IMG/VR virus record: IMGVR_UViG_3300035698_001510
Span: 1-26,343 of that record
DNA length: 26,343 bases
Reading direction: 5' to 3' (one strand)
Origin: a virus
This document shows, in pieces, positions 2,534-26,298 of this stretch (position 1 is its first letter; each line of letters opens with the position of its first letter). Position numbers and translations under genes: made by a program. Under the pieces are notes generated by a model, which was not told the DNA's origin, made no database searches, and saw nothing but the letters and a program-made list of their open reading frames with translations.

Positions 2534-5500
2534 CTAGTTACTGTTCAGTTTGTCAATGGCTTTTCTCTGAGCTTTAGCCCTTTGCTGGGCTTTCTTAAAT
2601 AAATCAATATCTTCTGGTCTTACTGGTACGATATTATCTCTCTTCTCTAAACCCTTGTCTAACAGCCATCTAAGTTTCCGCTTCATATCACCAACTGTTT
2701 TGATTTCTCTTAGCCACTTATTAGCTCTAAGGGTATCATCGTTCATAGTTGTAGGAATGTTACTTCTTGATAGCTTATCGCTGTCTTCGCCTTTAAATAC
2801 CTTCTTAGCGTCTTTGACACTACCCGTACCGAAATGATGTAAGTAATAAACAGATAGGTCTGTCACTGGTACTGCATTTATTTTAAGCTTACTTATGTTC
2901 TTCTCAGTAAATATCTTTATTCCAGCATGTTGCTGCCACTGCTGATCCTTACGATACAGACCATCTAATGTAAGACCTGCATCTTTCCCAGCAGGACTCT
3001 CTACAGTAGTTCTCCATGTATCAGGTAAGAACTGATAAAAACCAAAAGCCTGACTTAACACTTTACCTGTCTTACGATCTCTTGGTCTTGAGTTCCACTT
3101 ACCTTCACCTTCTGTCCATTGTAAATTCTCAGTGTAGGTAGTCATAGGGAAGTCTTCAGGTCCTTTTAATATAACTAATGCATTTTTCACAGAATCAACT
3201 GCTTCTTTAACTGAAGGTACTTCTGCATATTTAACAATGAAGTCTTCTAGTTTAGCAATACCCTCTGCAAATACTTTAGGGTTAGGTATGAAGTCAGTGA
3301 GATCTCTTCCACCTTCTTCATCTAACCCAAGTATCTTTCTAAACTTGAACCACGCGTTTACAGGCATGCCACCTACCGCGACTCCTATTCCGTTAGATAA
3401 CTTCTTCATATCAGATTCTTTCATGTCGAAGAAAGCGTCTATCATGTTGGTTCCTTGTATGACTTGATCTAAGTAGTCATAAGCAACTACACCACCTTGA
3501 CCTATTGAAAACGGTGCAGTTAGCACTGGAGCCCCTACTGTTAACGCTTCCGTTTCTAAAGCGAAAGCTACAGATCCTAATATTGGTCCTTGTGCGAAAG
3601 TGTTACCTGTAACCTTAGCAACTAGTCTGCCAGCACCCATCACTCCATTCTCTGTAGCTCTACCTATAATATTGCCAGGAAGGTCTAACACTATTTGCTC
3701 AAACAACTTACCCATCTCTAAAGATTCTTTCTTACCTGCTCTGTCTTCTTCACCGAACGGTACGTTACCTAGAGTTACATCTTTTAAAGCGTAGAACATT
3801 ACTGCTAACACTGCCATCATTGCCATTTGACCATTACTGTCTACAAGCGCAGCATTTGCTTTTACGAAGTCTCCTTCTTTCATAGCCTCTTTAAGTTCAT
3901 CTTTATTAACACCAATTCTTCTGAAGCTTGATCCTCTACTATTAAGAACTTGTCTTACTTCCGTAAACAGTCTTGTGAAGAATATAAGGGACTTGTTAGT
4001 CTGTATTGCAGATTTGTCTGACTCTTTAGCTCTCAGTGTAGTAGAAGCTGCCAGACTTGCCGCGTATGAGTTAGCCCTAGCTTGACGTTCTTCTTGTGAC
4101 ATTTTACTTATCACTTCTGATGGGAATCCATCTACTTCCCCTGCCATGAAAGCGTCCTGTCCTCCGACGACTGCTATTATCTTATTTATCATATCCTGCT
4201 TAGCTAGTATCTGCTCAAATGCTATAGATACGGTAGCTTCTCTAACTTCCATAAATGTTCTAACAGGTAAAGATCTTGTGAACCCATTGGTTCTTATCTT
4301 TGGTAACACCTTATCTAGACCTGGAGCTGAGAAATCACTTAGACCTTCTAGTGTTGCTCCTAAACTTGGATCAATATTACCAGCAGCTTCTATGATTGCG
4401 CCTAGTCTGCCAGATAAAAAGAGAGCTGCTAATTTAGTGCTAACTATACTCATGCGTTTAGGACCAAGCTTGCCAGTCAATTCTATGATCGTGTTAAAGT
4501 TAAGTATGAATGTTCCAGGGTTAGCTGCAAGCCAATTCACAATCTGAGCCATCTCTAATTTTCTTGCAAGCCTTACAAACCCATTGTCTACAGCAATATC
4601 CATTGATGTCTTATCTGCTGATAAGTTCTTACTCAACCTGCTCACTGCATCAGTCAACACATCATAGACTGGTTTTCCACCAATAGCTTGGATATCGAAA
4701 GCTACTCTTTTGTCATTGAGCACTTTAGCTAAGTCTTTCAAAGTGAGACGCATGTTAATGTCATATATCTCAGGGTCAAATATAGAACTCAGATACTTAC
4801 CTTGAATATTTAAAGTCCTGCCTGTACCTATACGCTCGTTAGTGTGGGGAGAGTAAACAGTACCTGCATAGTCATCACCCTTTTGTGAGTTCTTAGTGTT
4901 AGTTTTATATTCGTTTTCTACTATATCACCTAACTCATTCTCAAATTTAGATGGGTTTAGCTTCAGAGGAAAGAAACCACCTCTATAAGTTTTACCATGC
5001 ATCTCGAACTCATTCTTAGCAATCATCTCTAGGTCAATACCTTTATCTTTTTTGTATACCTCTTTTAAGTGAGGATTAAGTCTATCAAATATATCCCATA
5101 CAGTTTCTTGAATGAAATCCATTTCACTCTCTGAGACATACTTCTCTATGATCTCTAAGAAAGTCTCTCTGTCCATACCGTAATTGTCTATAACCTTGAG
5201 GTTAGACTCGTTACCAATATTCATTGCTAGCTGAAGAAGATCTATCCTTGCTAGCTTACCGTTATTTAAAGCGTCAATGCCTATAAACTCAGGTATGTTG
5301 ACAGTAGTGAATGCAAGTTTCTTAAACTCTTTCTTACCTATGTGCTTATTAATACCTTCTTGAAATAAGTCCTGCATCTCTTTGGTCATCTTAGCTACTG
5401 CAAGGTTAGCTTGATCCAAAGGAGCTTGTAAAAGTCTAAACCAAAAGCCTCCTTCTTTCTCATTATCTAGTAACAATGTAGCTGCTTTTGTATTTTGTAT

Positions 5501-8500
5501 TGATGCAAGTGGGTTAGATAAGAAGTCATTAAAAGCCTTATTCGTATCAGAAGTACCTACTTCATCCTTTACTCTACTAGGGTCATACTTAGGACTCTTG
5601 AGTGCTTCGTTATGTACACCATCAGCTATTGTGTCACTTGCAAATTCTTCCATGCTATTTATATATTCATTATCAATTGCAATAGCGGTCTTAGCTTTAT
5701 GATATATAGTCTCAAGCGTATCAACAATAAAAAGGAACTGATCTACAGTTAGTTCATTATAGTTAGTGGTAGGTTTTAACCACTCTAGAGTTGGCTCTGG
5801 AATACTTTCATCTCCCTGACCTTTTCTAACTTGCTCTGCATTCCATTTGTTATATCTGTCAATCTTCTCTCTTTGATCAGGGTCAGTAGTGAAATCAAAG
5901 AGAGATATAATATCATTCCCTGCTTGAACAAAACTAGGTCCAGCTTGTGCTAACATATTCTGTATTTTCTTCATCTTAAACTTGGCAATGAACTTGAGAC
6001 CTTTGTTTACTTTACCTATAGCTACTCTACTTTGACCTGACATCTGTGTGGAAAAAGCTTCGTTCTCTTTCTCTCTAAGTAACCTTTCAAAGTCACCATC
6101 AAGTAACGCTCCTACTGCAATACGTTCAGACTTTCTTTGAGCTACTTCCCATACGTTAGGGTTTAGGTTAGCAACCAATGTTCTACCGATCTTGTCTCTA
6201 GCTTTAGCTTTTAACCCAGCAAGAGTTGGTAATTTGAAAGCTGCTCTTTTAACTAGTCTCTTGAAAGCAGGGAATGATTTATTAACTATACTCTTCAGAC
6301 TCTTAAGTCGGATCTTAGTAAGATCATCGTAAGCATTCTTAGTGCCACTCTCTTCAAAAGTAGCATTAGTTACAGCCTCTTCTCTAATCTCTGCTTCTGT
6401 AACTTCTCTATTTAGCGCAGCAGCTTCATCAAATGTTAAAGTGTTTGCCAACATGTGCATAAACTTAGTGGCATTATCAAAACCAAACATGTCCATTACA
6501 GCAGTGATGTTTGATCCTTTTTGATTGAGCACTCCTCTGCTTTTTAATACTGCATCATTTTTATATTTTCTCTGAAGATCTTCAGGTAATGTTCGAGGAT
6601 CTATATCAAATATAGGTAGTCCCTTTGCTTTTCTTTTCTGCTGTCTTTCTGTCAACTCAACATCTTCACTAATAAGGATGTTGCTAAGATACTTCTCAAG
6701 GTTAACTATATTGTCATCGTCTTGGATCTCTTCTCGATATGCTGCTTCTTCGAGTAAGTTATTCTTCTCCGTTTCAAAATCAATAACTTTCTCCATAGCT
6801 TTGCCTCTGTCGGCCCTGATCTTTTGAACTACTTTTTGTTTAGCTTTATCTAAAGCGGCTCTTACTATGCGAACTTCAGCTTCAGGTAATACTTTAATCA
6901 TACCTTCTGTGAAGTCTTGTTGATCTAAGTAACTAGCTTCATCATAAATGTCTTCGTCAATGATACGTCTGTTGCCAGCTTCTATAAGAGAGTCTAGAGT
7001 CTTGTTAAGTTTCTTTTGTTTATCAGCCTCATCATTAGCTAATTGTTCAAGTTGTTTTATATTTGTAGGGTTACTCTTGGTCCTTTTCATTGAATCAATA
7101 TTCTTACTAGCATTTTCAGATATTACTTCAGACTCATTGATCAGCTTGACTGTCTTTTGTATGTCATTGCGTATTGCTTCTATGGTGTCTGGTTCAGGAG
7201 AAGTCTTAGGCTCTATAGGGTCTGGTCCAGAGTCCTTTTTTAAAGCTTCAACTTTACGTTTGTTCTCTTCCACTCTACCAGCATATTGGTTAGCAGTTGG
7301 TGACTCTGGTTCAACCATGACCATGCCTGATAACTCAGGGTATGCCGTAGCCATTGATACCAAGTCACCTGCTCTGACTACTATAGGAGCGTTAGCCTCA
7401 GTAGTCTCAACTCCTGCACCTAACATCTGTTTAAAGTCATTTGACTTCTGCTCGTCGTCACCAATCCAATCATTGATCGACTGTCTGTCCATGTATAAAA
7501 AGGTTATTCCTTTACTGTCCCATGCTTGTTGTATTAAGTCTTTTATAACTTTAGGGCTCTTCTTTAAGCTTTTAGACTCACTTATAAATTGTACTGCATT
7601 GTCTACCATAGCCTTTAAGTGATGCGCTCTCAGTCCTGTAATCACAGGGTCTCTATTAGGACTTTCACTGAATATAACCCCAGGCTCATTGATCCTAGTC
7701 TCTACTGATATCTTCGTGTTCTCTACAGGATCTATGCCTCTAGGGAGATCTTCTCCGAATCTAGTAGTGACATCTGGTGCGCCCTTCTGCTCTTTAACTG
7801 TCGGATTGTCTGCACTCAATCCTTTATTACCAAGTGCTTTTCTAATAAGAGGATCAGCAGCCATAGCTGCTGATCCAAACGTTCCACCCAAAGCAGCACC
7901 TAATACTAATGACTTTCCTATTCGTTCACCAGCTTGACCTACAGCTTCCGCTTTAGTTAAACCGTCATTCACACTGTTAAAGAATGTCTCTTCAGTACCG
8001 TCCCATGTTTGAGCAACTGACTCTGCCATTATTTGTAGAAGTTCCTGTGCTGACTCTTCTAATCCTTCTGCTCTTGCTATATTAAATATACGTCTAGATG
8101 TACTAAGTAACTGTGGAGATGCCCCAGCAGCGAGAGATTTAGCTACCGCTTTAGGGTTTACGAAATTCTTAACCCAAGGTACATTTTTAGCCACTGCTTT
8201 TATTGGTCCAAAAGCAGTTAGTAATGTCATAAGTGAACCAGTACCAAAAGCTATTGCTCGCATTGTATCTTTAGGGATAGGCTTGCCACCTTGCTCTTTT
8301 CTTAGTCTTTCAGATATGGTACTGAGTTCATTGTATACACCACCTACAGACAACTCATAGGTGTCTACAACTGTAGCTACCCCAAAGCCAAACACTGAGC
8401 CTGTAAGACTTCCTACTACACCACCAGCAACTCCACCACCCAAGAGTCCTGCAGTCCCGCCAGCAGCCGCAGCACTACCTATTATTCCTTTTTGTCTTTC

Positions 8501-9040
8501 TACTGACTTGAATATGTCAACAACACCTACACCAAATTCAAGTACCAAAGATTCACTTGTTGAGAATCCTCTTTGTTCAGGTCCTACCATTGATGCTGAT
8601 TTGTTATTAAGTTCTCTAAGTCTCATTAGGTCTTTATCAGATAGAGTACCACCATGTACGATGCCTAATGAGATATTAGCGGCCTCTACGTTTCGTGAAC
8701 TATTGTTAAGCATGTCGCCAAGTGTGTCGAACGAGTCTTTGAAATCAAATATTAAATCTTTATCTTCGTCTACTGCAACTTTATGCTCGGTAGACTTATT
8801 ACTTATGTTATCAACTACAGGATCAGTTCTTCTATTTTTATCTCTATCATTCTGTGCAACTACAAAGGTCTCTTTACCTTGCTTAAACATCTCAGGACTT
8901 GTGTTAAACTCTTCAGCTCCGTTGATATTATCAGCAGCTTCTTGAGGAGTTGACTCTTTGATATCAGCACCAAAATTAGATGCTAACTCTGGGCCTTCCT
9001 CTTCTCTCTGTATGTCTTCTTCAGTTTCTATAAATGCCAT
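2534..9040 (-). CDS. Giant internal virion (ejection) protein with C-terminal lytic transglycosylase, gp16-like
   Basis: 2168-aa protein, the largest in the window and well above T7 gp16 (1318 aa). By position after gp14- and gp15-like genes it should be the third ejection protein, which enters the cell envelope with the DNA. Residues 186-226 and about 378-398 are Gly/Ala-rich hydrophobic stretches that could insert in a membrane. The middle is mostly long charged helices. Residues about 1968-2075 form a lytic transglycosylase-like domain: QWTEGEGK with candidate catalytic E1977, then AFGFYQFLPDTW at 1998-2009. This resembles the W-x-E-G ... GxYQ pattern of lambda gpR (GH104), although a general SLT fold is also possible. 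In T7 gp16 the enzyme lies at the N-terminus, so the order here is reversed. Its start overlaps the upstream stop as TAATG. Confidence 0.85.
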   Translation of the reverse strand: MAFIETEEDIQREEEGPELASNFGADIKESTPQEAADNINGAEEFNTSPEMFKQGKETFVVAQNDRDKNRRTDPVVDNISNKSTEHKVAVDEDKDLIFDFKDSFDTLGDMLNNSSRNVEAANISLGIVHGGTLSDKDLMRLRELNNKSASMVGPEQRGFSTSESLVLEFGVGVVDIFKSVERQKGIIGSAAAAGGTAGLLGGGVAGGVVGSLTGSVFGFGVATVVDTYELSVGGVYNELSTISERLRKEQGGKPIPKDTMRAIAFGTGSLMTLLTAFGPIKAVAKNVPWVKNFVNPKAVAKSLAAGASPQLLSTSRRIFNIARAEGLEESAQELLQIMAESVAQTWDGTEETFFNSVNDGLTKAEAVGQAGERIGKSLVLGAALGGTFGSAAMAADPLIRKALGNKGLSADNPTVKEQKGAPDVTTRFGEDLPRGIDPVENTKISVETRINEPGVIFSESPNRDPVITGLRAHHLKAMVDNAVQFISESKSLKKSPKVIKDLIQQAWDSKGITFLYMDRQSINDWIGDDEQKSNDFKQMLGAGVETTEANAPIVVRAGDLVSMATAYPELSGMVMVEPESPTANQYAGRVEENKRKVEALKKDSGPDPIEPKTSPEPDTIEAIRNDIQKTVKLINESEVISENASKNIDSMKRTKSNPTNIKQLEQLANDEADKQKKLNKTLDSLIEAGNRRIIDEDIYDEASYLDQQDFTEGMIKVLPEAEVRIVRAALDKAKQKVVQKIRADRGKAMEKVIDFETEKNNLLEEAAYREEIQDDDNIVNLEKYLSNILISEDVELTERQQKRKAKGLPIFDIDPRTLPEDLQRKYKNDAVLKSRGVLNQKGSNITAVMDMFGFDNATKFMHMLANTLTFDEAAALNREVTEAEIREEAVTNATFEESGTKNAYDDLTKIRLKSLKSIVNKSFPAFKRLVKRAAFKLPTLAGLKAKARDKIGRTLVANLNPNVWEVAQRKSERIAVGALLDGDFERLLREKENEAFSTQMSGQSRVAIGKVNKGLKFIAKFKMKKIQNMLAQAGPSFVQAGNDIISLFDFTTDPDQREKIDRYNKWNAEQVRKGQGDESIPEPTLEWLKPTTNYNELTVDQFLFIVDTLETIYHKAKTAIAIDNEYINSMEEFASDTIADGVHNEALKSPKYDPSRVKDEVGTSDTNKAFNDFLSNPLASIQNTKAATLLLDNEKEGGFWFRLLQAPLDQANLAVAKMTKEMQDLFQEGINKHIGKKEFKKLAFTTVNIPEFIGIDALNNGKLARIDLLQLAMNIGNESNLKVIDNYGMDRETFLEIIEKYVSESEMDFIQETVWDIFDRLNPHLKEVYKKDKGIDLEMIAKNEFEMHGKTYRGGFFPLKLNPSKFENELGDIVENEYKTNTKNSQKGDDYAGTVYSPHTNERIGTGRTLNIQGKYLSSIFDPEIYDINMRLTLKDLAKVLNDKRVAFDIQAIGGKPVYDVLTDAVSRLSKNLSADKTSMDIAVDNGFVRLARKLEMAQIVNWLAANPGTFILNFNTIIELTGKLGPKRMSIVSTKLAALFLSGRLGAIIEAAGNIDPSLGATLEGLSDFSAPGLDKVLPKIRTNGFTRSLPVRTFMEVREATVSIAFEQILAKQDMINKIIAVVGGQDAFMAGEVDGFPSEVISKMSQEERQARANSYAASLAASTTLRAKESDKSAIQTNKSLIFFTRLFTEVRQVLNSRGSSFRRIGVNKDELKEAMKEGDFVKANAALVDSNGQMAMMAVLAVMFYALKDVTLGNVPFGEEDRAGKKESLEMGKLFEQIVLDLPGNIIGRATENGVMGAGRLVAKVTGNTFAQGPILGSVAFALETEALTVGAPVLTAPFSIGQGGVVAYDYLDQVIQGTNMIDAFFDMKESDMKKLSNGIGVAVGGMPVNAWFKFRKILGLDEEGGRDLTDFIPNPKVFAEGIAKLEDFIVKYAEVPSVKEAVDSVKNALVILKGPEDFPMTTYTENLQWTEGEGKWNSRPRDRKTGKVLSQAFGFYQFLPDTWRTTVESPAGKDAGLTLDGLYRKDQQWQQHAGIKIFTEKNISKLKINAVPVTDLSVYYLHHFGTGSVKDAKKVFKGEDSDKLSRSNIPTTMNDDTLRANKWLREIKTVGDMKRKLRWLLDKGLEKRDNIVPVRPEDIDLFKKAQQRAKAQRKAIDKLNSN

Positions 9041-15913: not shown

Positions 15914-16939
15914 TTAAGTAGTTATCTGAGCTTCAGAGTTCAATAAAGCGTCTGATCGTCTAACTGGCATTCCTAAGAACATTAATACTTTCTTGCCTTG
16001 GTAGTTATCGTAAGTCAAACCAGCTCCAGCTCCAATTTTAGTTAAAGACTGTTTATGTAAAGCTGCTTCGATAGTACGGTTAACATACCAAACACCTTGT
16101 CCATTTTCAGGACTGTGGATTTTGTAGAAAGCACTAATCATAAGATCAATAAGGTCTGCTGCTGCAACACCAGAAATCAAAGCTGGATAATCAATGTTCG
16201 CGATACGAGAAGCTTGACGGTAATCTTTTACAACTAAACCGTGGTCAATCTCGAACTGCTCTTCATATCCGTAGAAGCTACCAGCATCGCCAGCAGAATC
16301 TAGTGCTTGAATTTGAACTTCAACATTACCTTTAGAACGATCAGTTCTTTTAAGACCTGATTGAGTTCCCTTTGGATAAATACCAAAGATAGAACGTTCG
16401 CCCCAGAAAGCTAAAAGGATTGAAGTGTTATCTGAACCAGTACCACCAGCATCAATAATCTGCTTAGAAGTCTCTTCAGTAGTAGCAAGAGTCGAATAAA
16501 CATCGAAGAATCCTGCTGACTTCAAAGGATCAGTTAATGGTGATCCATATATAGTTAAACTTGCATGTTCAATTGCATGGGCTTGTAAGTGACCCATTGC
16601 TTGGTTCCAACGATTGTATCCGATTCGATCCATTCCACCACGTTTTGCAACGGCTGCATCAATTTGAGATTTACTCTCGAAATGAGCTGCTGTGAATGAT
16701 CTTTCTTCAACAGTTGATTTACTTGCTGGAATAGCTTGGTTGGCCTTACGGTAGTAAACCGCAGGTAACGCTGAACGTATGTCTTCTTTATGTATAGTGC
16801 CTTCATTCATCTCCATGTAGGGGATGTCGTTAAGCATAGGATTCTCTTCAACAAGAACCTCAGCCACTTTACCGATTTGTTTATTTTTGCTTTTCGCAAC
16901 GTCTGCTAGTGTTACAAGTTTAGTACCGAGTGCGGCCAT
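15914..16939 (-). CDS. Major capsid protein
   Basis: 341-aa major head protein, of the length and type found in BPP-1-like podoviruses (HK97 fold by family knowledge). Supporting features are VEENPMLNDIPYMEMNEGT near residues 30-48, an early KEDIRSALPAVYYRKANQ, a central RSIFGIYPKGTQSGL, and the C-terminal VLMFLGMPVRRSDALLNSEA, which is a very typical capsid ending. It lies immediately downstream of the scaffold gene and before the cement gene. GGGAGAATCAC precedes the ATG, a strong ribosome binding site expected for the most abundant virion protein. Confidence 0.92.
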   Translation of the reverse strand: MAALGTKLVTLADVAKSKNKQIGKVAEVLVEENPMLNDIPYMEMNEGTIHKEDIRSALPAVYYRKANQAIPASKSTVEERSFTAAHFESKSQIDAAVAKRGGMDRIGYNRWNQAMGHLQAHAIEHASLTIYGSPLTDPLKSAGFFDVYSTLATTEETSKQIIDAGGTGSDNTSILLAFWGERSIFGIYPKGTQSGLKRTDRSKGNVEVQIQALDSAGDAGSFYGYEEQFEIDHGLVVKDYRQASRIANIDYPALISGVAAADLIDLMISAFYKIHSPENGQGVWYVNRTIEAALHKQSLTKIGAGAGLTYDNYQGKKVLMFLGMPVRRSDALLNSEAQITT

Positions 16940-20437: not shown

Positions 20438-20890
20438 TTAAAGTCCTAGTATGTCATTGCCAGAACCGAGTATACCACCACCAGATGAATCATTAGGTGC
20501 AAGATTATTAGCTCTTACGCGTCTTGCCCCTTTATTCTTAGGTGTTCTTCTAGCCTCGGCTACTAACGATTTACTGATGTCATCTTTTTCATTTCTTGCT
20601 CGTTGCTGATTGAGTGCATCTTTGCGTCTTGCTGATTCTTTAGTTATAGCTTTGGATTTCTCAGCGTCAGCTTTTCTCTGTTTGTTAGCTCCGGTAAGGT
20701 CACGTACAGCATTTTGTCCAAACTCAGTAACAGGACCAGATTGAAGAGTACCAGAGTCTCTATCAAATCTTGCAGCACCAAGAGTACCTATTTGAAGAGC
20801 TGAATCGAAGGTTGTTCCTAGTGGATCTTCTACTAATCTTTTCAAGTTATTATCTAGAAAACGACTTATGTCTCTGCCTTCTTTGCCCAT
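20438..20890 (-). CDS. Basic helical hypothetical protein between acetyltransferase and portal (150 aa)
   Basis: Unknown function. Residues 1-65 include a short amphipathic segment and SGPVTEFGQNAVRDLTG. Residues 68-118 are highly charged helix. The C-terminus is NNLAPNDSSGGGILGSGNDI, a flexible Gly/Ser tail. Small basic proteins with an N-terminal MGK and a Ser-Ser-Gly-Gly-Gly-Ile tail occur beside the portal gene in other podoviruses; T7 gp7.3, a tail assembly protein, is one I recall with such a tail. That comparison is only suggestive. GAGG lies before the ATG. The first 25 bp overlap the acetyltransferase gene, and its stop touches the portal start. Confidence 0.65.
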   Translation of the reverse strand: MGKEGRDISRFLDNNLKRLVEDPLGTTFDSALQIGTLGAARFDRDSGTLQSGPVTEFGQNAVRDLTGANKQRKADAEKSKAITKESARRKDALNQQRARNEKDDISKSLVAEARRTPKNKGARRVRANNLAPNDSSGGGILGSGNDILGL

Positions 20891-21324
20891 TTACTTACCT
20901 CAATGCTAAAGTGCTCTTCGGTTTTAGTAAACCCAAGCCTTTCTAGTGAACGACGCTTGATGTTAGTTTCAGTGCCGATCATAGTATATATATGATCAGC
21001 ATTAGATTTTCCAAAGTCAATATATTCCTTCAATAATAGGTGCGCAGCCCTAGTTCTTGGTTGACAATACAGTAAATCTTGGGTCAGTATTTTAACCCTA
21101 GAATCAAACAGGCTCCCATTGAGCTGATACATCATAAATCCTACGGGTATTCCATCCCGTTCACAAAGAATAAATCTATGCTCATCTATGTACTTTGCTA
21201 AAGGGAAACCACTCCAATTGTAATCATTACCATACGCATCATTCACAGTCATAGCACCGTCAGCAATGAAGTCTAGTATCTCTTTAGTTAGCCCATCTCT
21301 TCTGAGTCTCCTAACTGTATACAT
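20866..21324 (-). CDS. GNAT-like N-acetyltransferase (152 aa)
   Basis: Probable member of the GNAT fold, which transfers acetyl from acetyl-CoA. With the start used here, residues 50-69 (RFILCERDGIPVGFMMYQLN) form the beta strand pair, 78-106 give the motif-A region (LTQDLLYCQPRTRAAHLLLKE), and 112-142 give the C-terminal NIKRRSLERLGF helix and strand. The usual Gly residues of the CoA loop (Q/R-x-x-G-x-G/A) are replaced by PRTRAA, so activity is uncertain. I chose ATG 21324 because GAGG lies six bases upstream; longer starts at 21348 lie deeper in the terminase gene without a ribosome site. Target unknown. Confidence 0.7.
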   Translation of the reverse strand: MYTVRRLRRDGLTKEILDFIADGAMTVNDAYGNDYNWSGFPLAKYIDEHRFILCERDGIPVGFMMYQLNGSLFDSRVKILTQDLLYCQPRTRAAHLLLKEYIDFGKSNADHIYTMIGTETNIKRRSLERLGFTKTEEHFSIEVSKWAKKAET

Positions 21325-22900
21325 CGTCATCCTCATCATAGTTGACACTGTGGTCTGGCATTTTTAGTGGATGAGATCCTACGTTAAAGCGATCATCACC
21401 AAGTCTTGAATCGTTCTCCCACTTACGCTCTAATACTTCTCTAGCAAAGCAAAGTACAAATCCATCAGCTACATCGGGTGACTTCCCTACTCTTGACTTA
21501 ATCTCACTCTTTGGTTCTGCAAGTTTTTTACCATGTGTTTTATGACGAGTCCCTTTAGTCCAACATAGTTGAGATCTAATCGAGTCGAACCACTCAGGAC
21601 GTTTAGCATCTATTATTCCACCAGCAACTAACCATTGATTAGCTTGGTAGTACATCTGTGCTCTGATGTTTGAGTACTCACTGTCTTTAAACTCAGCAGC
21701 ATCATTAGGAGTGTTAGCAAAAGATATCATCTCCCATCCTGTCTTACCGTTATTCATAGCAATTGTGTAAATACCTGTACCTTCACCTTGATCTATGAAA
21801 ACTGCGTCTACCATTAACTCGCGCTCCCAATGGACAAGTCTATTATACGTGTACATGTGATCGGCTTTATCAATGTCTCTAAGTTTATATTTCTCTAACA
21901 TACAGGCGTAGTTCCCCTGTCGATACCAAATACAAGTATCATCTCCACCCTGCCAAGCTGGATCGCAAGTTAGGATTACAGGAAGCATACCGACGCTGGC
22001 CTTATCAAAGCCTCGCATCCTCTCTATGCCACCTACAACACTCTCTAGTTTTATGATTGAGTCTTTAGCTGTCTTCCTTGGAAGTCCACGCACACGCACT
22101 CTGAAGTCATCGTCATCTTCATTACCACCAGCTTTCTGTAGCCAATAGTTAATCTGCGTCTGGTCAATATGAGTTAACGTCCTTGTGTCTATCCGTAAGG
22201 TATTCCATAACCTCGACTGCATGTTCTGTTCAAACTGACTTTCAGGATCATCTGAGTTCCCAAAAGCTAAGAATATCTTTATTGTCTCTGTCTCTGTAAA
22301 TGCACCCTCTGCGTAGTCCCAGATAACTGATGGTATACCTGGAGCTTCCTCAAAGATATACATAGCTACTCCACCTTTATTATGTAATCCTGATATACTT
22401 GCTGGTGTTTGTTCGTTCCATGTTACTGCATCTAGTCTCCAAGTTTCTGCCAATTTTGGATTTCTCGCTTTTATACTCGTTCCAAACTTCTCGAAGAATT
22501 GATCTACATATCTAGCATGTCTAAACCACAAGTCATACTCAGGCCAAACTATACTGTTCATCTGTGGTTGAGTATTGGCAGTGATACGCCCTCGCACTCG
22601 TTGGGTAAACATCAACATTAAATATGTCATTGCACCAAATGCTGTCTTTGCCGATCCGTTACCAGAAGAGATGCATAGTCTATACGCTTCATATCTTGTC
22701 TTCGGGGAGCTTAGGTGCAGAGAGAGTTTAGCCCACTCTTTCATCTGCCACTCATAAGGAGCCATGTGTTCTAATGCGTGCTCCTCTTCACCAAATGGAA
22801 ATATAATGTACGCTAGTTTACAGAAATCAAATCGGTTCTCATTGATCATCTCTGTAAAGAGTTGCATCTCATCGTTACTTGGTTGTGCAGGTTTAGCCAT
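21311..22900 (-). CDS. Terminase large subunit
   Basis: 529-aa packaging motor with ATPase and nuclease domains. The Walker A motif is SGNGSAKT at 79-86, an accepted variant. Walker B is AMYIFEEAP at 179-187, with E184/E185 as catalytic candidates. LAFGNSDD at 211-218 fits the coupling motif. The RNase H-like nuclease shows D313 (TCDPAWQGGDD), D370 (FIDQGEGTG) and the SPDVADG segment with D476/D479. All key residues appear present, so it should be functional. GGAGAG lies before the ATG and the preceding zinc-finger gene ends immediately upstream (TAAATG). Confidence 0.93.
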   Translation of the reverse strand: MAKPAQPSNDEMQLFTEMINENRFDFCKLAYIIFPFGEEEHALEHMAPYEWQMKEWAKLSLHLSSPKTRYEAYRLCISSGNGSAKTAFGAMTYLMLMFTQRVRGRITANTQPQMNSIVWPEYDLWFRHARYVDQFFEKFGTSIKARNPKLAETWRLDAVTWNEQTPASISGLHNKGGVAMYIFEEAPGIPSVIWDYAEGAFTETETIKIFLAFGNSDDPESQFEQNMQSRLWNTLRIDTRTLTHIDQTQINYWLQKAGGNEDDDDFRVRVRGLPRKTAKDSIIKLESVVGGIERMRGFDKASVGMLPVILTCDPAWQGGDDTCIWYRQGNYACMLEKYKLRDIDKADHMYTYNRLVHWERELMVDAVFIDQGEGTGIYTIAMNNGKTGWEMISFANTPNDAAEFKDSEYSNIRAQMYYQANQWLVAGGIIDAKRPEWFDSIRSQLCWTKGTRHKTHGKKLAEPKSEIKSRVGKSPDVADGFVLCFAREVLERKWENDSRLGDDRFNVGSHPLKMPDHSVNYDEDDDVYS

Positions 22901-23086: not shown

Positions 23087-23839
23087 CTACTTATCCTTTG
23101 GTGTTACATCAATTGTTTTAGCCTCACGCGCTTCAACCACTGCTCGCTCTGCTCTCTCTTTACTTTGCAACAACATGTCTTTCATATTATTACTTACATC
23201 GTGTTCTACTCTTGTGGTCTCTTTAAATAAGTCCACCTCACGACCAAGTAAGTCTATAGCTTTCATCTTGTCCCACATCTCTACTTCTATTAACTCACCT
23301 ACGATTTGTTTAATACCATTGGCATCACTCTCAAATAGGTTCTTAACTTTAAACTTTTTAATAGCTCTTCTTGTCTCCGGAGATATTCCTGTAAGACTTG
23401 TTTTGTAACTACCGTCATCGTTCTCCAGCTCTGCGATATCTACGAAAGCTATCTCTTTAACTTTCTCAACCACCTCATGGGCATCAAAGCCATACTTGTT
23501 TAACGATTGTTGCGTAAGCTTTGCAATGGCTTTGTGTATGTCCGGTCTTGCTCTAAGTGCTCTGCCGCTGTTAGAAGCAATTCCTGCATCACTACTGGCT
23601 TGTTTATTGTCCCTACAGTTGAGATAACTTGAGATGTAACGGAGGATATTAGGGTCGTCCCTGTGCTCTGGGAGGAGAGTGGTATCCAGTATAAACGAGG
23701 TCGCTTCAAGGGCGGTCATCTCCTTACTAGGTAGTGTGTCGGAACCAAGCTTGAGTCCTATCTCGTCATGGGCTGGTGGTTCTTCTATTTTTTTAATAGT
23801 CGCTAAATGTGTGCCAGGTGGCTTAGGAAATTCTTTCAT
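23087..23839 (-). CDS. Terminase small subunit
   Basis: Probable small terminase, which recognises the packaging site. With the ATG used here it is 250 aa. Residues 75-101 (CRDNKQASSDAGIA...) resemble the helix-turn-helix of this family, 120-140 give VVEKVKEIAFVDIAEL, and 155-206 give PETRRAIKKFKVK followed by EVEMWDKMKAIDLLGREVDLF, a strong small-terminase C-terminal pattern. The last 40 residues are charged helix. The start is uncertain: ATG 23839 has no Shine-Dalgarno, and an in-frame TTG at 23875 coincides with a -35-like TTGACA, which argues against it. The neighbouring large terminase supports the assignment. Confidence 0.82.
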   Translation of the reverse strand: MKEFPKPPGTHLATIKKIEEPPAHDEIGLKLGSDTLPSKEMTALEATSFILDTTLLPEHRDDPNILRYISSYLNCRDNKQASSDAGIASNSGRALRARPDIHKAIAKLTQQSLNKYGFDAHEVVEKVKEIAFVDIAELENDDGSYKTSLTGISPETRRAIKKFKVKNLFESDANGIKQIVGELIEVEMWDKMKAIDLLGREVDLFKETTRVEHDVSNNMKDMLLQSKERAERAVVEAREAKTIDVTPKDK

Positions 23840-23847
23840 GTGTACAA
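23839..23847 (+). promoter_or_regulatory. TGTGTACAA site at the small terminase start
   Basis: This 9-mer also occurs at 25083-25091 and, inverted, at 25533-25541 and 25693-25701. Here it covers the predicted transcription start and the terminase ATG, a good position for a repressor. Binding is inferred. Confidence 0.4.
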
Positions 23848-23875
23848 CGTATTTCTGTCGTAAGCGTATTGTCAA
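23846..23875 (-). promoter_or_regulatory. Candidate sigma70-like promoter of the late operon
   Basis: A perfect TTGACA lies at 23875-23870 on the minus strand. With 17-18 bp spacing the -10 would be ATACGT or TACGTT, both poor matches. Transcription would then start at about the ATG at 23839, giving a leaderless or near-leaderless message, in agreement with the absent ribosome site. The weak -10 may mean an activator is needed. Confidence 0.4.
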
Positions 23876-23889
23876 GCGTCATATCTATC

Positions 23890-23920
23890 TGGACTGCTTG
23901 GTCCAAATACTCGAGTATTT
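23890..23920. promoter_or_regulatory. Operator-like palindrome and adjoining hairpin in the divergent promoter region
   Basis: AAATACTCGAGTATTT at 23905-23920 is a perfect 16-bp palindrome. It adjoins TGGAC-TGCTTG-GTCCA (23890-23905), a five-bp inverted repeat. Both lie between the divergent small terminase and phosphoesterase genes, where a dimeric regulator could control both directions. Confidence 0.5.
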
Positions 23921-23928
23921 TGTAAATA

Positions 23929-23955
23929 TTGCACTGTTCCTATGATTCTTACAAT
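23929..23955 (+). promoter_or_regulatory. Candidate promoter for the phosphoesterase gene
   Basis: TTGCAC at 23929-23934 and TACAAT at 23950-23955 are each close to the sigma70 boxes, but the spacing is only 15 bp. The leader would be about 14 nt with no Shine-Dalgarno. Confidence 0.3.
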
Positions 23956-23975
23956 ACCTTACATACACTTTATCT

Positions 23976-24728
23976 ATGAAACTTGCCTACATTATACCCG
24001 ATACTCAGTCTAAGGATAACGTACTCAGCCCTCTCATACCTGTAGCGAGACATATTTGCTACCTCAGACCAGCTATGGTTATCCATCTAGGAGACCATTG
24101 GGATATGCCCTCTCTGTCTATCTACGATAAGGGTAAGAAGTCTCATCGTGTCCGAACCTACCACTCTGATATAGTTGCTGGAAATAAAGCCATGCAGGAG
24201 TTCTGGTCCATCATTGCTAAATACTGGCCAACCTACGCCACTGACTGCCAATGGGTCATCCTAGAAGGCAACCATGAGCATCGTATCCATAGAGCCCAAG
24301 AGCATGGCCCTGACGAGCTGGTATCCCTAATGGACGAGTTCCCCAGAGACTACTCTCATTGGAACCGAACCGTACCCTTCCTAGAAGTATTTAATTGGGA
24401 AGGGATTGAGTTTTGTCATTACTTCCAAAATACCAATGGCCCGAGACCAATAGGTACAGCTAGGCAACTCTTAATGAAGACCCATCGCTCCCGCATAGCA
24501 GGACACAAGCAAGGCTTCGACTATGAAGAGATGCCATCCGGCTCCGACAAAATGATCCAAGGCATGATCGTCGGCTCTTGCTACTACCACGATGAAGAAT
24601 ATAAAGCTCACTCTAACAACCACTTCAGAGGCACAGTGCTCTTAAAAGATGTCCAAGATGGTATGTTCGATTTCTCCAGGTACTCACTCGACTCACTAGC
24701 TAAGCAATACGGTAAAGGTACAATATGA
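23976..24728 (+). CDS. Calcineurin-like metallophosphoesterase (250 aa)
   Basis: Predicted two-metal phosphoesterase acting on phosphomono- or diesters; substrate unknown. Metal-ligand motifs are in order: D9 (PDTQ), D40 (LGDHWD), N99-H100 (EGNHEHR), H148 (FCHYFQN) and H177 (AGHKQG). The first motif reads D-T-Q where the family usually has D-x-H, a substitution also accepted in some members. The length is normal for a single domain and there is no signal peptide, so it acts in the cytoplasm. It is transcribed away from the late operon and overlaps the next gene by ATGA. No ribosome binding site is visible. Possible roles include nucleotide or DNA-end processing; neither is shown. Confidence 0.85.
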   Translation: MKLAYIIPDTQSKDNVLSPLIPVARHICYLRPAMVIHLGDHWDMPSLSIYDKGKKSHRVRTYHSDIVAGNKAMQEFWSIIAKYWPTYATDCQWVILEGNHEHRIHRAQEHGPDELVSLMDEFPRDYSHWNRTVPFLEVFNWEGIEFCHYFQNTNGPRPIGTARQLLMKTHRSRIAGHKQGFDYEEMPSGSDKMIQGMIVGSCYYHDEEYKAHSNNHFRGTVLLKDVQDGMFDFSRYSLDSLAKQYGKGTI

Positions 24729-24982
24729 AACTCAACCTTGAGAAACCAATATATCTAGTTGTATGGGAAGACTCCGAGACTGCTGACGGATGGGATGGAG
24801 CCTATGAAATTGACGAGCATCTTAACTTCCACCCTATGAGTAGTGTGGGGTTCCTAATTGCTGAGAATGATAAAGGTATTGCTCTCGCTATTAGCTGGGA
24901 CCCAAAAAATGAGAGAGCTAACCCGATACTTTATATCCCTCACGCTGCTATTATAAACATGCATATCATCTATTTTGACTAA
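24725..24982 (+). CDS. Small conserved-looking hypothetical protein (85 aa)
   Basis: 85-aa protein of unknown function, translationally coupled to the phosphoesterase by an ATGA overlap. It has the layout of a small phage protein type I have seen elsewhere: a strand ending in VVWEDSETADGW, then SVGFLIAENDKGIALAIS, then a closing YIPHAAIINMHII. This suggests a compact beta barrel or sandwich. No catalytic motif, cysteine or membrane segment is present. The pairing with the phosphoesterase may reflect a shared task, but nothing more can be said. Confidence 0.75.
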   Translation: MKLNLEKPIYLVVWEDSETADGWDGAYEIDEHLNFHPMSSVGFLIAENDKGIALAISWDPKNERANPILYIPHAAIINMHIIYFD

Positions 24983-25020
24983 GTGTTTCTAATTACCAAT
25001 ATAGAACTAGTGGTTTAATT

Positions 25021-25134
25021 ATGGGGCATGATGCTGCGCTACTGTCGTTGTGTTGGGTTTGGTGGGGTTGTGCGGGTACATTTGTGTACAATGTAGTGAT
25101 TGTTGCATCTCGTAAAAATTGGATAATTTTATAG
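25021..25134 (+). CDS. Possible 37-aa single-span membrane peptide
   Basis: An ATG-started frame encodes 37 residues with a hydrophobic, Trp-rich segment (SLCWVWWGCAGTFVYNVVIV) followed by SRKNW, a positive-inside C-terminal flank. No clear Shine-Dalgarno precedes it, and it lies inside a region full of regulatory-looking repeats, one of which is part of this frame. The G/T-rich composition alone would favour Trp, Val, Cys and Gly codons, so this may be chance. Confidence 0.2.
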   Translation: MGHDAALLSLCWVWWGCAGTFVYNVVIVASRKNWIIL

Positions 25135-25149
25135 ATTTGACCTTTTCAA

Positions 25150-25180
25150 GCCCCCGCGTCATTTTGAATTTTGTGGGGGC
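25150..25180 (+). other. GC-rich hairpin downstream of the phosphoesterase operon
   Basis: GCCCCCGCG pairs with TGTGGGGGC over a 13-base loop, with two G-T wobbles. It lacks a T-run on either side, so it is a poor intrinsic terminator, but it could slow transcription or protect an mRNA end. Confidence 0.4.
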
Positions 25181-25190
25181 CCCTCTCTTG

Positions 25191-25224
25191 ACAAATGCTC
25201 AATGTACAATTCTTAAGCATTTGT
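25191..25224. repeat. Inverted repeat ACAAATGCT / AGCATTTGT enclosing a TGTACA core
   Basis: The arms at 25191-25199 and 25216-25224 are perfect nine-bp inverts; TGTACA (25203-25208) lies near the centre. The left arm begins inside a TTGACA box (25188-25193). AGCATTTGTGA recurs at 25381-25391, again just after a TGTAC site. Confidence 0.55.
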
Positions 25225-25331
25225 GACAGCCTACCCAAAGCGCCTCGGAGCATGAGTAAATCAGTCACGGGGCTACAGGGAGCTGTCAGTTACACAAGCA
25301 ATAACGTGATGTTAGCAACGCAACACACCTT

Positions 25332-25379
25332 AGTACATTGTAACGCCTCAGATGCAAGCTAAGGGCAAGACAATGTACT
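25332..25379. repeat. Inverted repeat AGTACATTGT / ACAATGTACT
   Basis: Perfect ten-bp arms at 25332-25341 and 25370-25379, separated by 28 bp. The match extends outward imperfectly. A nested CCTTAG/CTAAGG pair (25328-25333 and 25359-25364) lies in the same segment. Confidence 0.6.
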
Positions 25380-25438
25380 GAGCATTTGTGAGATATGGGG
25401 AGGATAGAGACGTTTAGGGGGATTGTGCGCCTCACGTC

Positions 25439-25481
25439 TTACTATTAATGGCTCTAAGTTTACTATTAATGGCTATTAATG
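25439..25481 (+). repeat. Phased CTATTAATG direct repeats
   Basis: CTATTAATG occurs at 25442-25450, 25463-25471 and 25473-25481. The first two are part of a 15-bp direct repeat, TTACTATTAATGGCT (25439-25453 and 25460-25474). Spacings of 21 and 10 bp are close to two and one helical turns, so bound proteins would lie on one DNA face. Confidence 0.7.
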
Positions 25482-25484
25482 ATT

Positions 25485-25493
25485 ACAATGTAC
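25485..25493 (+). promoter_or_regulatory. ACAATGTAC site
   Basis: Third exact ACAATGTAC in the region, after the inverted pair at 25332-25379. It directly follows the CTATTAATG repeats. Confidence 0.4.
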
Positions 25494-25649
25494 GTAAATT
25501 ATCTTAATGACGCGTTACATTTCTCTTGTTTATTGTACACAACCAATAATATCCATGATATTTTAATTATATATACATTATACTGTTTCCTTTTATCTAA
25601 ATTCCAGCATGCCGGTGGCAAGAAATTGAATAAAAGATTAACTGAATAT

Positions 25650-25666
25650 GTTTAATATAATTAAAC
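25650..25666. promoter_or_regulatory. AT-rich palindrome GTTTAATATAATTAAAC
   Basis: Seven-bp perfect arms around ATA. It lies about 95 bp upstream of the 178-aa gene and could be an operator or a melting element. Confidence 0.4.
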
Positions 25667-25688
25667 GCTGCGTCATCCACTAGATAAA

Positions 25689-25732
25689 TACATTGTACAC
25701 AGCTTGACAATCAATACCTCAACTAATAGACC
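25689..25732 (+). promoter_or_regulatory. Candidate promoter with adjacent TGTACA site for the right-hand operon
   Basis: TTGACA at 25704-25709 is preceded by TACATTGTACACA (25689-25701), a 13-bp exact inverse of 25083-25095. At 17-bp spacing the -10 would be TAGACC, a weak match; TAATAG at 25724 is better but 14 bp away. The surrounding GCTTGACAAT is identical to that upstream of the small terminase gene. Confidence 0.4.
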
Positions 25733-25761
25733 TATCAATCAATAGCAGGGAGCTAATCGAT

Positions 25762-26298
25762 ATGAGTGATAATCAAGAGCCGCCAAGTGATGACTTCAAG
25801 ACTGGAGTCAAAGAAATAGAGAAGCTATTCGACGAATATCCAATATTTTGGGATCAAATGAACAAGGACAAGACAAGTCTTTATAGTTCTAAATACTTAT
25901 TCATACATGAGAAGAGAGCAGGACAGTTACCCACAATAGGCTGTATTAGGGCTATATTGTTCGGTCAATGGAAAGGTTTTGAAATAATACTTCAAGACTC
26001 AAAGCCAGAGAAGCTTGGTACATTTAAGGAGCTTGAAAGCATTATATTAGAGCCGAGCAATAACTTAATGTTCCCTTATGTAGATCAGGACAGTGAGAGG
26101 TTGAAAGCTTTCCAGATGACTATATTTAAGTATTTTAAGTGTGATAAGAAGCGATACACGAACCAATACACTAAGAATAAGTTAGCCTTTGGATTAGCTA
26201 ATCATCCTTGGTTTAGCAATGCAGGTGCGGATAAGACTAAAGACTTCAATCCAGCAGGGCTTGGCATGCCAAGTTTTAATATAGGGAGCTACAAATGA
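25762..26298 (+). CDS. Hypothetical protein, first gene of the right-hand operon (178 aa)
   Basis: I do not recognise this protein. It is 178 aa, soluble-looking and mixed alpha/beta, without signal peptide. Visible segments are an acidic N-terminus (DNQEPPSDD), VKEIEKLFDEYPIFWDQMNKD, a helix IGCIRAILFGQWKGFEI, FKYFKCDKKRYTNQYTKNKL and a Pro/Gly/Asn-rich tail (NPAGLGMPSFNIGS). AGGGAG lies nine bases before the ATG. It opens a plus-strand operon behind the repeat-rich control region, a position often taken by early regulators or replication accessory proteins, but no DNA-binding motif is evident. Its stop overlaps the next start as ATGA. Confidence 0.75.
   Translation: MSDNQEPPSDDFKTGVKEIEKLFDEYPIFWDQMNKDKTSLYSSKYLFIHEKRAGQLPTIGCIRAILFGQWKGFEIILQDSKPEKLGTFKELESIILEPSNNLMFPYVDQDSERLKAFQMTIFKYFKCDKKRYTNQYTKNKLAFGLANHPWFSNAGADKTKDFNPAGLGMPSFNIGSYK

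Follow-up and report, generated by a model that had tools for sequence, protein, structure and literature searches.

Why should one short sequence recur both at the start of the late operon of a virus and in the noncoding region between its divergent operons? The question is raised by a DNA stretch of 26,343 nucleotides (positions 1 to 26,343 of the IMG/VR virus record IMGVR_UViG_3300035698_001510, hereafter the window), in which the initial annotation had noticed four copies of the 9-mer TGTGTACAA and had proposed that a single phage regulator, acting at the gene of the small terminase subunit (terS) and in the intergenic control region, switches between early and late expression. Here, we show that the control region bears an array of 11-bp palindromes and that arrays with the same core but with phage-specific outer bases lie at the same place in related phages, and we propose a model of how a phage protein would act on them.

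Palindromic sites in the control region

The four copies of the 9-mer are indeed present, at 23839-23847 and 25083-25091 and, inverted, at 25533-25541 and 25693-25701, with shuffled versions of the window giving 0.33 copies of TGTGTACAA and none of 100 shuffles reaching four. The 13-bp inverted match TGTGTACAATGTA between 25083-25095 and 25689-25701 is also exact. The argument from rarity, by which about 0.2 copies were expected, is nevertheless weak, because as many as 101 9-mers have at least four copies in the window (shuffle mean 43.6); the hexamer TGTACA is not enriched there (13 versus 9.6). The 9-mer as the unit is not supported, the real unit being a different and longer palindrome: when the four copies are aligned with their neighbours, the unit is the 11-bp odd palindrome GTACA-W-TGTAC. 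The core ACAWTGT occurs five times in the 779-bp intergenic region, as against four times in the other 25.5 kb (binomial 2.6e-6), while shuffling of the intergenic region gives a mean of 0.27 and in none of 2000 shuffles five. Similarly, the control region has eight sites with at most two mismatches to GTACAWTGTAC, compared with 0.4 in the shuffles (maximum 3). The cluster is significant once the unit is taken to be the longer palindrome rather than the 9-mer.

The operator-like palindromes are GTACAATGTAG at 25086-25096 (one mismatch), lying at the 9-mer copy 25083-25091; GCTCAATGTAC at 25197-25207 (two mismatches), immediately following a TTGACA at 25189; GTACATTGTAA at 25333-25343 (one mismatch); AGACAATGTAC at 25368-25378 (two mismatches, with the core exact); TTACAATGTAC at 25483-25493 (one mismatch); and ATACATTGTAC at 25688-25698 (one mismatch), which is at the 9-mer copy 25693-25701 and is the nearest to the right-hand open reading frame (ORF). 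Two weaker sites, each with two mismatches, are GTTTATTGTAC at 25528-25538, overlapping the 9-mer copy 25533-25541, and ATACATTATAC at 25573-25583. The 9-mer is absent from the sites at 25197, 25333, 25368 and 25483, which had been overlooked before. The 14-mer TGTACAATGTAGTG, at site 25086, is found also in the relative L006 at about position 268.

At the late operon the evidence is mixed. The copy at 23839 overlaps by one base the terS start codon (ATG at 23839-23837, minus strand), as had been described, but its match to the palindrome is weak: the candidate late-operon site GTACAACGTAT, at 23842-23852 just 5' of the start codon, has two mismatches. Its position agrees with that in the relatives described below, and we regard the site as tentative. 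As to the copy said to abut the −35 box of the right-hand operon, that box is not supported: TTGACA is present at 25704-25709, but no sigma-70 −10 box lies 16-18 bp away. Between positions 23700 and 25800, sigma-70-like promoters are fewer than in shuffles (1 versus 5.8); the phage may use other promoter types.

The control region contains further repeats. Within 25191-25226 and 25329-25474, AGCATTTGTGA occurs twice in direct orientation and once more, in part, inverted; 25329-25341 and 25370-25382 form an imperfect inverted repeat of 13 bp; and TTACTATTAATGGCT occurs twice, 21 bp apart. Comparison of the control region with Rfam gave no RNA family, and the tRNA search gave no tRNA.

Arrays in related phages

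Relatives were sought by searches with the large terminase subunit (TerL; 21311-22900, minus strand), which is distantly epsilon15-like, giving about 56 loci, to which a primase-based search added L129, L122 and L114-L116; a search with the first right-hand ORF gave no matches. The relatives have this signal too, likewise located between terS and the early genes, and as many as 26 cores are present within 2.6 kb. Its core ACAnTGT does not vary, whereas each phage has its own outer bases (GA, TA, CA, AT, AA or GT); every phage with an array has palindromic sites. In a count of all 1024 odd palindromes over the whole locus, NNACAnTGTNN is the most frequent in several loci, with differing outer bases. 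Giving exact copies followed by those with at most one mismatch, GAACA has 4 and 12 in L014, 9 and 19 in L040 and 5 and 6 in L061, TAACA has 3 and 11 in L043, ATACA has 4 and 13 in L055/L062, and AAACA has 4 and 8-10 in L048/L050; in L041 the half-site is CAACA. In a second scan, which covered all 1024 half-sites without bias over the 2.6 kb upstream of terS and with spacers of 0-7 bp, the half-site xxACA with a 1-bp spacer ranks first in L014, L040, L041, L043, L048, L050, L055/L062, L013 and the window, is tied for first in L061 and is among the top in L011. Moreover, L129 has six perfect AAACAWTGTTT sites in 190 bp, L122 has ATACA and L114-L116 have GAACA.

The initial annotation had also raised the questions of how dense the motif is elsewhere in the genome and whether it is conserved, and on neither do the relatives refute its reading. 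The sites are kept in related phages and are concentrated in the control region, which in G013 holds 19 of the 22 copies of the phage's own 11-mer in 2.6 of 47.3 kb (5.5% of the genome), in G014 11 of 14 (0.9 of 48.3 kb), in G017 12 of 13 and in G016 5 of 6, with G015 being less clean (8 of 18). All 14 array-bearing loci examined have a core at 12-150 bp 5' of terS. When all viral contigs were searched for close pairs of GAACAWTGTTC or GTACAWTGTAC, only 25 others were found, with 2-3 exact copies each and none of them homologous to the phage group. Pairs thus occur elsewhere, while the dense arrays appear to be special to this clade.

Some other features of the same region are noted. A G-rich element like GGGGGTGGGnCAAAA, possibly a cos/pac packaging site, recurs in the control region upstream of terS in many relatives (L011:270-300, L016:2915-2945, L006:165-195, L014:2465-2500, L040:4590-4610 and L114:16570-16582). 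At the start of the early operon, L040 (3112-3369 and 3451-3738, both minus strand) and L014 (1294-1449, minus strand) encode small predicted secreted proteins, which could be exclusion proteins and in which the operator core lies inside the signal-peptide codons (Asn-Asn-Val being AACAATGT). In L037, which has no ACAnTGT array, the same control region (5220-6420) is dense in GAGATGTA and ACATATCTCTACATCTCGTTACATATC repeats.

The candidate binding protein

What protein, then, would read such sites? A gene for an XRE protein of 60-90 residues is conserved in 15 phages, namely in five array genomes, six further long contigs and four more phages, the first two sets making up all 11 of the searched TerL- or helix-turn-helix (HTH)-derived contigs of at least 42 kb. 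Within the operon running out from the array, the gene has a downstream position, close behind a gene for a ribbon-helix-helix (RHH) plus winged-helix protein. Profile matches of XRE are to MqsA and HigA-2, with HTH_3 above cut-off in one member only, and its structure model (pLDDT 83), predicted to have the HTH plus C-terminal dimerisation helices, matches HigA2 (E 2e-3), including the HigA2 operator complex; Aca1, Aca2 and Aca10 are also among the fold matches. Against 50,697 phage records there were only two weak matches and no close cultured relatives. No toxin match was found for the RHH-type neighbour of XRE, the other neighbours not having been scanned.

The variation of the protein can be compared with that of the operator. 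MqsA reads its operator TAACCT-N3-AGGTTA with Asn97 and Arg101 (PMC4901048), and HigA2 has recognition-helix residues at comparable places (PMC11006873). Two variable residues of the XRE helix align with these two DNA-contact residues of MqsA, by our own reading of the alignment. The helix QAV(R/N)L, with Q..L at the two positions, is found with the (G/T)AACA operator (G013, G015, G016 and L114), the helix xxVxH, with A..H and S..H, with ATACA (G017 and L122), GAVEH, with G..H, with CAACA (G014), and LSIKY, with L..Y, with AAACA (L129). Moreover, L114 (four, at 16201-16608) and G016 (at 29189) have sites immediately 5' of the RHH-XRE operon, in keeping with autoregulation.

Proposed mechanism and alternative explanations

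Based on these data we lean, with modest confidence, to the view that the intergenic region is an operator array of 11-bp palindromes NNACA-n-TGTNN to which a phage dimeric protein, probably XRE, would bind. The binder is most likely the small HigA/MqsA-type XRE, whose gene would lie at the distal end of the early operon starting at the array, beyond the end of the window's contig. In the model, XRE would accumulate and fill the array, and we infer that the effect of filling is repression, with the divergent early promoters and the operon of XRE itself being shut down. The late operon, which runs from terS on the opposite strand, would be gated by the filling of the array. XRE would then be a Cro- or Aca-like repressor of the early genes, and the turning down of the early operon would gate the switch to the late operon. 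A repressor of lysogenic immunity is unlikely, because the integrase domain PF00589 was found in none of 14 genomes and relatives of TerL in none of the bacterial genomes of 84,980 species; temporal control of lytic growth is more likely. The single regulator proposed in the initial annotation fits well with the arrays of one phage-specific palindrome between the divergent operons and with the core near terS, and its reading is supported in part; the early/late switch itself stays a proposal, to which a role in replication is a rival.

That replication role is the main rival: the array would be a replication origin, with the palindromes as iterons that bind an initiator and with transcription control being secondary. 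We regard this as unlikely, though it has evidence of its own. The minimum of the cumulative GC skew falls in the array in G013, G015, G016 and G017 and is 0.4 kb off in G014, a point that weighs against the operator model, although the gene direction also flips here and could alone flip the skew. The tandem units of 18 bp in L016 and about 30 bp in G014 are iteron-like, and 11-26 copies are more than is usual for operators. By contrast, the spacing is irregular, favouring 12, 16, 18, 20 and 30 bp without 10.5-bp phasing (coherence 0.15), some sites precede the RHH-XRE operon, at a distance from the array, and no initiator gene was recognised. A chance repetition of the 9-mer in an AT-rich noncoding stretch, with which its four copies in a 26-kb window where such 9-mers are common and the lack of TGTACA enrichment would agree, is hardly credible: for the array as a whole it is refuted by the enrichment of the core in the window and by the arrays in the relatives, and it is possible for the single terS site at 23842. 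Host DnaA boxes are less credible still and are rejected as a general explanation. The reverse complement of the 9-mer, TTGTACACA, is similar to the DnaA box, being one base off the consensus TTATNCACA; but the CACA end is present only in some copies of the window and lies outside the phage-specific consensus of the relatives, where the outer bases are not conserved.

If the array is an operator, its binder could also be the adjacent RHH-plus-winged-helix protein, which is equally conserved, being next to XRE in the same operon in 10 of 11 full genomes, with one member passing Pfam RHH_3 (members without PHROG match stand just 5' of XRE at L062:1413-2117, L064:46-558 and L072:231-827). Binding to arrays of short palindromes is known of RHH proteins. 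We nonetheless consider it improbable that this protein rather than XRE is the binder, because G013 and G016 share the operator with unlike RHH strands and near-identical XRE recognition helices. In a permutation test of helix against operator, p was 0.015 for XRE and 0.21 for the RHH strand, without correction for kinship and with residue positions selected in knowledge of the fold. These limits of the test count against XRE as the binder of an operator array, as do other points. The XRE gene of the window itself is unsequenced, the window ending before it, and no sigma-70 promoter adjoins the sites in its control region. Furthermore, G019, G021 and G025 have XRE without an evident ACAnTGT array, which means that they have different operators or that XRE is wrongly linked to the array; their recognition helices differ (WQAVHYW, ERAIEYW and PGAVLHW, respectively), and G021 has another repeat array at the same place, so that other operators may be in use there. 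The contig of G027 ends before the control region, placing it outside this comparison.

Other genes of the window

Leftward from terS (23087-23839, minus strand; phrog_51, E 1.4e-13), the first gene of the late operon, run the structural genes. Between terS and the control region are a metallo-phosphoesterase gene (23976-24728, plus strand; phrog_221, E 2.7e-34) and one small ORF. The noncoding control region (24983-25761) extends from these genes to the right-hand operon, whose first ORF (25762-26298, plus strand; 178 residues) has no PHROG family and which is cut by the contig end after 0.6 kb. In addition, 2534-9040 encodes a virion protein of 2168 residues with a C-terminal part that resembles, by eye, a lytic transglycosylase, and an acetyltransferase-like gene between terL and portal (20866-21348) is kept in several relatives.

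Significance and comparison with known systems

Temperate mycobacteriophages are known to have diverging multi-copy operator codes, which define their immunity groups. The dense and symmetric version here belongs to a widespread uncultured phage group without integrases, raising the question of why a lytic phage would need 10-26 sites with a private code. A speculative reading, which we hold to be possible rather than probable, is that a non-lysogenic lineage runs its early/late programme by an operator array resembling those of immunity systems, with a code that diversifies in step with the tiny HigA/MqsA-type protein; each phage would then have private regulation without lysogeny and possibly private exclusion of co-infecting relatives. 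The at least five specificities would offer ready protein-operator pairs with which to study target shifts in an HTH protein of some 80 residues.

In lambdoid phages, oL and oR are palindromes for a small XRE dimer, Cro or CI, between divergent promoters. Unlike lambda, with six 17-bp operators and a CI/Cro pair, the phages here have up to 26 sites of 11 bp and one small XRE. As a candidate autorepressor turning early genes down, XRE is like the Aca repressors of acr operons, which are small phage HTH proteins; Aca systems use one or two sites. The candidate XRE also has the HTH-plus-dimer-helix fold of HigA2 and MqsA, which bind short palindromes in their own promoters; the palindrome of HigA2 is TGTACGC-N5-GCGTACA (PMC11006873). 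It differs from them in having tens of sites rather than one or two, a spacer of 1 bp and no adjacent toxin gene that was recognised. The stoperators of Cluster A mycobacteriophages (L5, Bxb1) have up to about 30 copies, with a consensus that changes from one relative to another along with the repressor (PMC6550527). Here too, there are many copies of one phage-specific site per genome and the consensus differs between relatives. By contrast, stoperators are 13-bp, asymmetric and oriented, scattered over the genome and serve lysogenic immunity, whereas the sites here are symmetric and lie together in a single control region, the search for an integrase being negative. Although on these tested features the array falls outside the stoperator class, it is the stoperators to which it is closest in logic.

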